NCBI RefSeq assembly: GCF_000426705.1
Contig: NZ_AUFW01000007.1
Coordinates: forward strand, 124,001 to 188,000
Length of the DNA: 64,000 bases
From: Spirochaeta cellobiosiphila DSM 17781
Lineage (GTDB): Bacteria > Spirochaetota > Spirochaetia > DSM-17781
Direction: 5' to 3'
Below, piece after piece: positions 53,520-57,486 of the stretch (positions are counted from its first letter, which is position 1; every line of letters begins with the position of its first letter). Both the position numbers and the translations under genes were made by a program. The notes beneath the pieces were generated by a model, which was not told where the DNA came from, did no database searches, and worked only from the letters and a program-made list of their open reading frames with translations.

Positions 53520-55628
53520 ATGGCTACAAGTGTAACGGACCTATATGGTGTTAATGCATTCAGTGACGTGGTAATGCGAGAAAGATTGCCCAAAGCTGTT
53601 TACAAAGAAATAAAAGCAGTTCAACAAGGACTTATGGTGCTTTCTTTGGAATCAGCCAACGTTGTAGCAGCTGCTATGAAGGATTGGGCAATTGAAAGAG
53701 GAGCAACACACTATACTCACTGGTTCCAACCACTAACTGGTGCTACTGCAGAAAAGCATGATTCATTCATTGAGCCTACAGGCGATGGTCGTGTATTGAT
53801 GGAGTTCAGTGGTAAAGCTTTAATTCAAGGAGAGCCTGACGCTTCTTCCTTCCCCTCAGGAGGTCTACGGGACACTTTTGAAGCTAGAGGTTATACAGCA
53901 TGGGATACAACAAGCCCAGCTTTTATTAAAGATGCTACTACAGGAAAGATACTTGCCATACCAACAGCATTTATTGGTTATCATGGACAGGCATTAGATA
54001 AAAAAACACCCTTATTAAGATCCATGGATGCTTTGAGCACTCAAGCATTACGAGTGTTAAGAGCATTAGGCAACAATACAGCAAAAAAAGTTACAACAAC
54101 TGTGGGACCTGAGCAAGAATACTTTCTAATTGATAAGGAGTATTTTGCAAAGAGACCTGACCTTCTTCTATCTGGTAGAACTGTGTTTGGTGCTATGCCT
54201 GCAAAAGGTCAAGAATTGGATGATCATTATTTTGGCGCTGTTCAGGATCGTGTAGCAGGATTCATGAAAGAACTCAATATCGAACTTTGGAAGCTAGGTA
54301 TTGATGCAAAAACACAACACAATGAAGTTGCTCCTAACCAATTCGAATTAGCAACCATCTTTAACACTTCCAACGTAGCAGCTGATTCTAACCAACTGGT
54401 TATGGAAACTATGAAAAAAGTGGCAAAAAGACATGACCTTGTTTGTCTTCTTCATGAAAAGCCATTTGCTGGAGTTAATGGGTCTGGTAAACATAACAAC
54501 TGGTCAATGAGTTCTGATGATGGTCAAAACTTACTCGAGCCTGGTGATACTCCTCATGAAAATGCACAATTCTTATTATTTGCTGCCTCTGTTATTAAAG
54601 CCGTTGATATGTATGCTCCATTACTAAGATTGGGAGCTGCTAATTCAGGAAATGACCACCGACTAGGGGCAAATGAAGCTCCTCCAGCGATTATTTCAAT
54701 CTTCTTAGGAGATTTGCTAACTGAAATATTTGAAGCGATTGCAAAAGATGGAAAACTAGAAGCCAAAGAAGGGGGTAACCTAAAACTTGGTGCTAATTGT
54801 CTTCCTGACCTCCCTAAAGATCTAACAGATAGAAATAGAACCAGTCCTTTTGCCTTTACTGGTAATAAATTTGAGTTCAGAATGTGTCCTTCCTCTGATT
54901 CCATATCTGGTGCTAACGTTGTACTTAACACTGCTGTTGCTGATATTCTAATGGAAGTTGCTGATCGATTAGAAAAAGCATCTAACATAACATCAGAGAT
55001 GACCGCCATTGTTAAAGAATACTATAATGCCCACGAGAAAGTTGTGTTCAACGGTAATGGGTATTCAGACGAATGGGTTGCAGAAGCTGAAAAAAGAGGT
55101 TTACCTAACTTAAAGTCAACTGTAGCAGTTCTTCCTGAACTTATTAAGGATTACTCCAAAAACTTATTTACAAAGCACAAAGTTTTCATAGAAGAAGAAA
55201 TTGTGTCCAGATATAATGTTTATGCTGAAAAATATGCTAAACAGATTAATATAGAAGCGAATGTAATGGTTGAAATGGCTAAACAGCAAATTGCTCCTGC
55301 AGCTTTAGAATATGCTTCAGAATTAGCTAGTGAAGTCGCGTCTATAAAAGAAATTGTTTCTGTGGGAACTTCTACAACTGAAGCATTAATTAGCGATATT
55401 GCAAGTAATGTTGAAACTCTTCTCAAAGAAACTGCAGTCCTTGAAACAAAAATTAAGGAAGCTCAGGAAAAAGAAGAAGAGGGAGAGTATGCTCTTGCAA
55501 AAGCTTTCCGTGAAAATGTATTCACACAAATGGCTAAAGTAAGAGAACCTGGTGATTGCCTTGAAAAGCTTGTTGCTAAAGAATACTGGCCATTCCCTAC
55601 ATACGAAGAAATGCTCTTCAAAATGTAA
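53520..55628 (+). CDS. glnN: Type III glutamine synthetase
   Basis: 702 residues, the length of GSIII. Ordered motifs: [15 protein letters not shown] (metal-binding Glu), [38 protein letters not shown], and [19 protein letters not shown]. Makes glutamine from glutamate, ammonia and ATP as a double hexamer. GSIII has no adenylylation site, so control is probably transcriptional; an inverted repeat lies upstream. AGGAG at 9 nt from the ATG. Confidence 0.95.
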
Positions 55629-55652
55629 TTCCTGTATCATTTCAGGTATTAA

Positions 55653-55681
55653 GAGATCCGCTTTTGCGGATCTTTTTTTTT
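55653..55681 (+). terminator. Intrinsic terminator after glnN
   Basis: GATCCGC/GCGGATC stem, loop TTTT, followed by nine T. Confidence 0.93.
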
Positions 55682-55708
55682 ATTCATCAACCCTATATAC
55701 TCACCTGC

Positions 55709-57049
55709 ATGAACTCAAAAATACCAATCTTAAAAACTTTAATTGCTTTAGCAACGCCTATCATGCTTCAGAGCTTCTTACAAAACTCATTAAGCTTTTT
55801 TGATACATTAATGATTAGTCAATTAGGAGATGAAAAGGTTGCTGCAGTTGGTATAGCAGTACAATTAATTTTTATTTTCAACATGATCCAGTTTGGTCTT
55901 CAAACCGGTTTATCTATTAATACATCTCAATACTATGGCAAGGGTGACTATAATAGTATCAAAAAGATACTTGGAATCCAAATCCTTTTCAGTGTGGTAT
56001 CTCTAGCATTACTCTGGATTGCTATATTTGTTTTACCAGACCACATTCTTTCACTATATACTGATGATATAAGGATTAAGGATACAGCAAAGTCATACCT
56101 TCAAATCAACGGGGCATCTTTACTTTTTGCAATTTTAATCAACAGCTACACTCTAAATCTTCGCAGTACAAATGTCGTTAATCTACCTACTATTGCTAGT
56201 GGTATCTCTGTATTTATAAACTTAGGTTTAAACTATGTCTTTATATTTGGTTGGGGTGCTATTCCTGCTCAAGGCGCCAATGGAGCGGCTCTAGCAACAG
56301 CCATAGCCAGATTTGCTAACTTGGCGATACTATTATTTTTCACATATAAATTCAAATACATAGCAGCCGCTTCCATAAAAGAAATGATAAATTTTGATAG
56401 TGAATTTATCAAAAAAACCTTCAAAGTCACATGGCCTGTAGTACTAAACGAAAGTATTTGGGTACTTGGGGTGAGCTTGTATAGCTGGGTGTACGCCAGA
56501 ATGGGGACTCAATCTCTGGCTGCTGTTAATATATGTACATCCATTGAAAATGTCCTATATACACCTTTTTTTGGTATGTTTGCAGCAGGAAGTGTCCTCA
56601 TAGGTAACCAAATTGGACGTGGTGATACCTCTCAGGCAAAAGAATCCGCAAAATTAATCATAATTATGCATACCCTATTGGCTATATTCACAGGGATTAT
56701 CCTCATTGCTTTAAGAGTTCCCATAATGAGGATATACAATGTATCAGAAACCACAATGTACTATTGTTCCAGAATCCTTATTATCATCGGTATCACTATG
56801 GGCCTAAAAATGCTTGACTACACCTTTACTGTTAGCATTTTTAGAGGAGGTGGTGATACAAAATTTAGTCTATTCCTGGATTTTTCTGGTGTCTGGCTCA
56901 TTGGTGTACCAATATCATTAATTGCTGGAATGATATTTAAAATACCAGTATATTGGTTAGTAGGCTTAGTAAAAATAGAACATTTCTATAAAATTCTATT
57001 AGCCTGGGTGAGGTATAAGAAAGATAAATGGATCAGGAAAGTGATCTAA
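55709..57049 (+). CDS. MATE-family efflux transporter
   Basis: 446 residues from ATG 55,709 (the frame extends 45 nt upstream through the glnN terminator). Twelve hydrophobic segments in two homologous halves with an internal duplication typical of MATE: ATPIMLQSFLQNSLSFFDTL and VTWPVVLNESIWVLGVSLYS. Exports cationic drugs or metabolites by Na+ or H+ antiport. No Shine-Dalgarno; TATACT 7 nt upstream suggests a leaderless message that restarts right after the terminator. Confidence 0.9.
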   Translation: MNSKIPILKTLIALATPIMLQSFLQNSLSFFDTLMISQLGDEKVAAVGIAVQLIFIFNMIQFGLQTGLSINTSQYYGKGDYNSIKKILGIQILFSVVSLALLWIAIFVLPDHILSLYTDDIRIKDTAKSYLQINGASLLFAILINSYTLNLRSTNVVNLPTIASGISVFINLGLNYVFIFGWGAIPAQGANGAALATAIARFANLAILLFFTYKFKYIAAASIKEMINFDSEFIKKTFKVTWPVVLNESIWVLGVSLYSWVYARMGTQSLAAVNICTSIENVLYTPFFGMFAAGSVLIGNQIGRGDTSQAKESAKLIIIMHTLLAIFTGIILIALRVPIMRIYNVSETTMYYCSRILIIIGITMGLKMLDYTFTVSIFRGGGDTKFSLFLDFSGVWLIGVPISLIAGMIFKIPVYWLVGLVKIEHFYKILLAWVRYKKDKWIRKVI

Positions 57050-57073
57050 ACATATTTTATGAGGAGCCTAATT

Positions 57074-57289
57074 ATGGGTAAACGATCTGAAAGCACCCTC
57101 AAAGGGGTACACAAAAAAGCCGGGAGAGCGATATTACCTCCCAATAAAGTCTTCAAAGATAAGAAGAAATATACCAGAAAGTTAAAGTATAAAGGTAAGC
57201 AAATAAATGATGCTTACCTTTTTTTATTTCCCATAAAATTACATGTTGACACTTTCGATCTTAATAAGTATAGTTCCATTCGTCGCTAA
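57074..57289 (+). CDS. Small basic protein with in-frame terminator; ArfA/BrfA-like ribosome rescue factor candidate
   Basis: 71 codons from ATG 57,074 (AGGAG 7 nt upstream). The first 42 residues carry 16 Lys/Arg, with KVFKDKKKYTRKLKYKGK at 25-42. A perfect 11-bp stem (AAAGGTAAGCA/TGCTTACCTTT, 57,191-57,221) and a T7 run lie inside codons 40-51; no stop precedes them, and the frame continues to TAA at 57,287. Most transcripts should therefore end without a stop codon. E. coli ArfA and Bacillus BrfA are made this way, and YTRK..Y.GK resembles the ArfA KKGKGSY.RK core. That is inference, not homology by search. Residues after ~50 look less protein-like. Confidence 0.5.
   Translation: MGKRSESTLKGVHKKAGRAILPPNKVFKDKKKYTRKLKYKGKQINDAYLFLFPIKLHVDTFDLNKYSSIRR
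57191..57226 (+). terminator. Intrinsic terminator inside the small basic ORF
   Basis: AAAGGTAAGCA (57,191-57,201), loop AATAAATGA, TGCTTACCTTT (57,211-57,221), T-run to 57,225. As strong as the terminators after glnN and the tRNAs. The loop has TAA and TGA only out of frame. Confidence 0.88.
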
Positions 57290-57298
57290 GAACGATTT

Positions 57299-57371
57299 GC
57301 CCTGGTAGCTCAGGGGATAGAGCAACCGCCTCCTAAGCGGTAGGTCGGACGTTCGAATCGTCTCTAGGGCA
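57299..57371 (+). tRNA. tRNA-Arg (anticodon CCT)
   Basis: 73 nt folding into a full cloverleaf: 7-bp acceptor GCCCTGG/CTAGGGC (one G.U), D arm GCTC/GAGC, anticodon arm ACCGC-CTCCTAA-GCGGT reading CCT, T arm GGACG-TTCGAAT-CGTCT, discriminator A. The CCA end is not encoded. Confidence 0.95.
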
Positions 57372-57377
57372 GATTAA

Positions 57378-57451
57378 GGGGGTGTGGCGAAGTTGGTTAT
57401 CGCACCGGCCTGTCAAGCCGGGGATCGCGGGTTCAAGTCCCGTCACTCCCG
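57378..57451 (+). tRNA. tRNA-Asp (anticodon GTC)
   Basis: 74 nt: acceptor GGGGGTG/CACTCCC, D arm GCGA/TCGC, anticodon arm CCGGC-CTGTCAA-GCCGG, T arm GCGGG-TTCAAGT-CCCGT, discriminator G (identity element of tRNA-Asp). 6 nt after tRNA-Arg, so co-transcribed. CCA not encoded. Confidence 0.96.
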
Positions 57452-57456
57452 ATATA

Positions 57457-57486
57457 ACGCAAGGTTTGTACCTTGCGTTTTTTTTT
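57457..57486 (+). terminator. Intrinsic terminator after the tRNA pair
   Basis: ACGCAAGGT/ACCTTGCGT stem, loop TTGT, followed by eight T. Confidence 0.93.

Follow-up and report, generated by a model that had tools for sequence, protein, structure and literature searches.

Organization of the Locus

The window (the whole 64,000-nucleotide stretch of Spirochaeta cellobiosiphila DSM 17781 DNA analyzed here) contains a short forward-strand ORF located between a transporter gene and a pair of tRNA genes, with the following features:

55664–57049, forward strand: MatE-family transporter gene, upstream, ending 24 nt before the small ORF
57062–57066, forward strand: Shine–Dalgarno sequence AGGAG, 7 nt 5′ of the ATG at 57074 (from sequence)
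57074–57289, forward strand: candidate rescue-factor ORF of 71 codons (full reading frame; coding status backed by a spirochaete orthologue)
57113–57193, forward strand: conserved core KKAGRAILPPNKVFKDKKKYTRKLKYK, residues 14–40 (comparison with the orthologue and family profiles)
57191–57221, forward strand: hairpin in the reading frame, 11-bp perfect stem and 9-nt loop (stem search, folding, and controls)
57219–57225, forward strand: T7 run completing the intrinsic terminator, with three of its T also paired in the stem
57227–57289, forward strand: post-terminator codons and stop codon, unconserved
57246–57274, forward strand: tRNA promoter TTGACA-17-TATAGT (11/12) within the 3′ end of the ORF (promoter scan)
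57298–57372, forward strand: tRNA-Arg(CCT), downstream of the small ORF
57378–57451, forward strand: tRNA-Asp(GTC), downstream of tRNA-Arg(CCT)
57456–57479, forward strand: own terminator of the tRNA pair

The ORF encodes a 71-residue protein (MGKRSESTLKGVHKKAGRAILPPNKVFKDKKKYTRKLKYKGKQINDAYLFLFPIKLHVDTFDLNKYSSIRR). A preliminary description of this DNA had reported an 11-bp stem followed by T7 at 57,191–57,225, ahead of the stop codon; the terminator is real, but three T were counted twice in that account, and the element amounts to a stem of 8 bp with A3 on one side and T7 on the other. Its arms, AAAGGTAAGCA and TGCTTACCTTT, enclose the 9-nt loop and the T run extends to 57225; the predicted fold has an energy of −13.8 kcal/mol (z −4.15), with 0/200 shuffled sequences being equally stable. 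Our first terminator scan missed this hairpin because its loop limit was set to 8 nt. Since the stem ends 65 nt before the stop codon, transcripts of the ORF are expected to have their 3′ end at approximately 57223–57226, within codon 50–51 and without a stop codon, as the preliminary description had anticipated. The codons in 57227–57289 are probably rarely transcribed from the ORF's own promoter.

Cotranscription of the MatE-family gene and the small ORF is possible. The tRNA promoter lies between the terminator and the stop codon, 24 nt 5′ of tRNA-Arg, such that the last codons of the small ORF double as the predicted promoter of the downstream tRNA pair. Elsewhere in the window, a strong terminator at 55651–55676, directly 3′ of a type III glutamine synthetase gene (53520–55628), overlaps a spurious ORF only.

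The In-Frame Terminator Exceeds Chance and Recurs in a Second Spirochaete

The mRNAs of the ribosome-rescue genes arfA and brfA end ahead of their stop codons, through either a terminator or RNase III cleavage, and tmRNA tags the resulting product unless trans-translation fails; the truncated ArfA and BrfA proteins are active, and the residues that they lose are poorly conserved (PMC8012679, PMC6881298). An alternative explanation for the same layout at this locus is that the ORF is an ordinary small gene, that the terminator ends the transcript spanning the MatE-family gene and the small gene, and that its overlap with the reading frame is accidental, leaving the position of the stop codon without regulatory meaning. 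Two circumstances are compatible with such an overlap: the terminator and the tRNA promoter are packed into the short interval separating the gene from the tRNAs, and our comparison set includes no second genome from the organism's own family.

The frequency with which such overlaps arise argues against an accident. By raw hairpin energy alone, the window gene did not stand out from control ORFs, owing to base composition, and we therefore defined a strong terminator as an exact stem of at least 9 bp plus a T-tract. Such an element is absent from the final 300 nt of all 897 control ORFs (at least 100 aa, from the window and the fetched contigs), and 5,000 codon shuffles of the small ORF failed to produce a single one. 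The in-frame terminator of the ORF thus exceeds chance.

The layout is also repeated elsewhere. Among 60 relatives, a single orthologue was found (E 9e-11), on contig JAFGQL010000136.1 of Spirochaetales bacterium Zod_Metabat.752 (hereafter G050). The two proteins are 63% identical over the strongly conserved basic core, where the 27 aligned codons comprise 7 identical, 14 synonymous, and 6 nonsynonymous pairs, and the differences fall on codon positions 1, 2, and 3 in the ratio 6/4/18; the predominance of synonymous change indicates that the protein is under selection and that the ORF is a real gene. The G050 frame likewise holds a terminator (11 exact bp plus a T-tract, z −7.4), with its TGA stop codon a few bases past the T run. 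The stem sequences of the two genes are unrelated and their contexts differ, the G050 gene being followed by an apparent rph ORF of 228 aa instead of by tRNAs; the layout has therefore been kept in the sole other spirochaete found, with another stem and other neighbors, which is difficult to reconcile with accidental overlap. Coding constraint between the pair stops at the hairpin, and the codons beyond it show no conservation, in line with the earlier proposal that the frame is normally used only to about codon 50.

The gene is rare in spirochaetes, being present in two genomes of the several hundred sampled, and its conservation is that of this pair together with the wider family described below. 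No third spirochaete case was found in 393 genomes of the phylum and 395 of the class (overlapping samples). Weak spirochaete matches (L003–L008, L011–L025, L027–L029, and L104) were rejected as chance hits, in which pieces of the motif fall within long or disrupted frames; L104, on reading, appears unrelated.

Membership in an Uncharacterized Protein Assemblage

On its profile matches, the window protein belongs to the uncharacterized assemblage phrog_2701/DUF7230. Residues 10–43 match phrog_2701 (E 4.6e-6 for the window protein and 6.1e-8 for G050, covering profile positions 10–43 and 8–43 of 46, respectively), and residues 25–43 match Pfam DUF7230 (PF23876), for which the scores of 20.7 bits (window) and 24.7 bits (G050) lie below the cut-off of 27, yet are the best Pfam match of each protein. 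Aligned as a pair against 23 gammaproteobacterial DUF7230 proteins with hhalign, the two sequences give Prob 92.8 and E 3.9e-7. The tail common to the family is FxDKxKYxRKxKHK.

No search placed the protein among ribosomal proteins or other known families. Used alone as a query, it returned no match in genome contigs, in phages and plasmids (tblastn), or in the first scan of viral contigs; NCBIfam and the PDB gave no match, and no similarity to ribosomal proteins or solved structures exceeded chance. DUF7230 and PHROGs 2701, 6310, and 1359 are families of unassigned function in their databases, and a literature search returned no paper mentioning DUF7230. To our knowledge, the DUF7230/phrog_2701 family, its spread, and its link to phages have not been described in terms of ribosome rescue.

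Relatives were reached with a degenerate DNA scan for the pattern F.D[KR].KY.RK.K[HY][KR], which identified 42 contigs, mostly Methylococcales; tail conservation within this set is partly produced by the pattern itself. The DUF7230 profile search also recovered members that lack the FxDKxKYxRKxKHK tail. Three pattern-scan matches (L032, L041, and L069) were discarded as chance.

In-Frame Hairpins in Bacterial Relatives

The Methylococcales genes provide the most extensive comparison for the layout. Of 28 genes, 26 have a strong hairpin whose 5′ arm falls within the reading frame, and in 23 the frame encloses the hairpin entirely; of the two genes without such an arm, one is truncated by a contig end. 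The stems are 15–25 bp long and mostly start no more than ~5 nt past the last core codon, and the stop codon is mostly well beyond the hairpin. Across 22 aligned hairpins, 94.2% of cells are paired, compared with 64.8% when shuffled and at most 48% in a slid control; double changes affecting both sides of a pair occur in 20 of 23 hairpin pairs, with a covariation score of 0.788 versus 0.245. These shuffles ignore kinship and the Methylococcales sequences are mutually related; nevertheless, given the slid control and how many pair types occur, there is little room for doubt that the RNA hairpin is under selection. At the protein level, mean pairwise identity is 63% in the core but drops to 25% across the hairpin and 7% after it, the same lack of conservation beyond the hairpin as in the spirochaete pair.

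The in-frame design that the preliminary description likened to ArfA and BrfA is thus found in the window gene, in G050, and in most Methylococcales members, and the same script detects it in 5/6 ArfA genes from the same genome sample, which served as a positive control. Terminator-like hairpins within the frame also occur in the gammaproteobacterial DUF7230 genes L090 and L091, and long hairpins span the stop codon in L085, L086, and the Desulfoluna member L046. In these relatives, long perfect stems that lack a T-tract recall the RNase III sites of arfA; among bacterial members of phrog_2701/DUF7230, an in-frame terminator or a long hairpin of putative RNase III type is frequent. The design is not universal: in Bacilli (L043, L044, L060, L062, and L066), in most phages, and in some divergent DUF7230 genes, the same tail is followed by a normal stop and the frame contains no hairpin. 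The Bacilli members, from metagenome-assembled genomes, are small proteins with the consensus KDPNAKAMWGxTKSxTFKDKTKYTRKxKHK. In a Methyloglobulus genome (G427), two DUF7230 copies (L040 and L051) each have their stop codon in the hairpin loop.

Covarying hairpins that sit in frame, with the stop mostly well beyond, are not what accidental overlap would produce, and together with the control ORFs and G050 they make that explanation unlikely. Instead, a hairpin placed right after the conserved tail and followed by unconserved codons reproduces the build of arfA and brfA, for which reason we regard a truncated mRNA feeding trans-translation as the best reading of the in-frame hairpins.

Members in Phages

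The tail is widespread in phages: it occurs, by motif, on 68 viral contigs with varied N-termini, and one form of it has matches in 541 phage records. All 19 sampled phage members match DUF7230 at E ≤0.1. Most phage members have a normal stop a few codons past the tail, and an in-frame hairpin is found on only 9 of the 68 viral contigs, versus 26 of 28 genes in the Methylococcales set (Fisher p 1e-13, kinship uncorrected); the in-frame hairpin is mostly a bacterial feature. Eight of the nine form one group with an NRQDKNSGDS-like sequence after the tail (L141, L150, L152, L154, L156, L158, L165, and L166, reading MKKFKKF.EELxxASGTEMMxASQMR...FKDKSKYTRKTKHKNRQDKNSGDS, with the terminator-like hairpin in frame). 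Contig L048, filed under Crocinitomicaceae, carries a similar sequence and an in-frame terminator-like hairpin, and probably derives from a phage of this group.

This distribution brings forward a second alternative, namely that the protein is a phage-derived RNA- or ribosome-binding peptide with some other job (for instance takeover of host translation, ribosome hibernation, or as an accessory ribosomal protein) that is harmful and hence kept low by the non-stop design. Besides the abundance of the tail in phages, its highly basic character would suit such a peptide, as would the presence of an RNA ligase gene nearby on two phage-type contigs, one of which also encodes RtcB. However, the searches that found no ribosomal-protein or solved-structure match beyond chance do not point in this direction, and the sole known counterpart of the tail is the mRNA-channel segment of ArfA. 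Furthermore, we know of no non-stop gene design outside rescue factors. We consider another job for the peptide improbable, to about the same degree as accidental overlap.

The two contigs with a KYxRKxKHK gene near an RNA ligase gene are L052 (JAEHCK010000177.1), where RtcB is the further neighbor, and L176 (Acinetobacter phage vB_AbaM_PhT2-v2); the tail gene and the RNA-repair genes could possibly constitute a translation-damage response module. L052 is filed under Thermoplasmata and was considered as an archaeal member, but with RtcB and RNA ligase as neighbors it looks like a mis-binned phage contig, and we do not count it as contrary evidence.

Relationship to Known Rescue Factors

The genome encodes a tmRNA (155 bits) with the tag AEDNFALAA. 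Only two PF00472 proteins are present, RF1 and RF2, both of RF1/RF2 length; with no third such protein, the genome has no ArfB, and the 71-aa ORF itself lacks GGQ. An NFACT protein (RqcH-like) is encoded, and another backup, RQC, may thus exist in this genome. In a survey of 15,259 genomes, ArfA was found in 0/108 and ArfB in 16/108 Spirochaetota (PMC11633108).

ArfA (YhdL, PF03889) is a backup to tmRNA in gamma- and betaproteobacteria and resembles the window gene in its basic product of ~50–55 residues, its in-frame hairpin, and its mRNA without a stop codon (PMC8012679), as well as in the unconserved codons after the hairpin and a YxRKxKH segment (ArfA Y39–H45). The window protein differs in lacking the KGKGS motif and in its N-terminal half. 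Where ArfA has the core KGKGSYxRK, the window protein reads KDKKKYTRK and G050 reads RDKNKYTRK, with Y-x-R-K-x-K alone in common. The preliminary description had likened the YTRK segment to the ArfA core: the YxRKxKH segment does line up in hhalign, in register with Y39–H45 (KSKYQRKAKHK/KGSYMRKGKHG), but at Prob 3.4 and 2.5%, which is not significant, and neither KGKGS nor a PF03889 match accompanies it. As a control we included E. coli ArfA, its sequence confirmed by a score of 89.5 bits on PF03889 in the same search; it scores weakly on DUF7230 (E 0.07–0.11). Across 369 gammaproteobacterial genomes, 13 carry DUF7230 and six carry ArfA with an overlap of 0, but as the expected overlap is only 0.2, their separation carries no information. 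The divergent gammaproteobacterial DUF7230 proteins L093 and L095 read NPIAKQVRTPRFRPRVVQDKKK, near the LRTPRFKMQQQTPKKGKGSY of ArfA in L097, and are possible intermediates between DUF7230 and ArfA. It is very improbable that the window protein is a genuine, if divergent, ArfA-family protein: despite the matching size, gene layout, and register and the weak DUF7230 score of E. coli ArfA, PF03889 (cut-off 25.5 bits) matches neither the window protein nor G050, nor any of the 23 DUF7230 and 19 phage members, in addition to the missing motif and the nonsignificant profile comparison. The likeness to ArfA is probably one of working in the same way rather than of membership, through convergence or very distant relationship.

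BrfA (YqkK, Bacillus) shares with the window gene 71 sense codons and an in-frame Rho-independent terminator, yielding a tmRNA-controlled product of ~62 aa; it is limited to a subset of Bacillaceae, and its two N-terminal helices touch 23S rRNA (PMC6881298). Its tail carries a K-H pair, as do most DUF7230/phrog_2701 members, whereas the window protein has K-Y. PDB searches with the window protein returned no rescue factor, and the comparison with BrfA is based on its published description. ArfT of Francisella is likewise tiny and basic, with many Lys residues toward its C terminus, and recruits RF1 or RF2, but its stop codon is not preceded by a terminator or an RNase III site (PMC6299226); its tail reads KKGGSTNKK, as against the KYxRKxKHK of the present assemblage.

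A Putative Backup Rescue Factor and Its Implications

Judged from the sequence, all features of the arfA/brfA non-stop design are present here. We therefore think it likely, with reasonable confidence, that the product of ORF 57074–57289 is a backup rescue factor acting on ribosomes trapped on mRNAs that lack a stop codon, and the preliminary description's reading of the gene as a rescue factor is supported by the predicted terminator, the conserved basic core, and the comparison with relatives; each of its refutation criteria that lent itself to computation came out in favor of that reading. In the mechanism that we propose, transcription would cease at the terminator, past codon ~50 but short of the stop codon, leaving the translating ribosome to stall at the mRNA 3′ end; by analogy with known trans-translation, tmRNA–SmpB would add the AEDNFALAA tag and the tagged product would be degraded, such that little protein would be made while trans-translation works. 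Upon failure or saturation of trans-translation, the protein of ~50 residues, a basic peptide that probably folds on the ribosome only, would be released untagged. Its tail VFKDKKKYTRKLKYKGK, also basic, would enter the vacant mRNA channel of a non-stop ribosome, and RF2 or RF1, presumably recruited by the protein, could then free the peptide.

The protein would probably represent a putative fourth family of alternative rescue factor. More broadly, we lean, by a narrower measure of confidence, toward the view that the FxDKxKYxRKxKHK assemblage is a large, unrecognized class of rescue factors in phages and bacteria, in which phage members, with a normal stop, would be always on, and those of Methylococcales and other Gammaproteobacteria, spirochaetes, and Desulfobacterota would be placed under tmRNA control by an in-frame terminator or RNase III hairpin.

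The non-stop design itself is already known. Reviews expect further small rescue factors, perhaps beyond the reach of sequence similarity (PMC8012679, PMC6881298), and the approach taken here relies on gene layout instead, namely an RNA signal that lies within the reading frame and directly follows a conserved basic tail. If our reading is correct, the window gene would be the first in spirochaetes to specify an alternative rescue factor of this type, and a function would be provided for Pfam DUF7230 and for several PHROG families in hundreds of phage genomes. It further suggests that phages may bring their own rescue factor, which fits with infections that leave many broken mRNAs.
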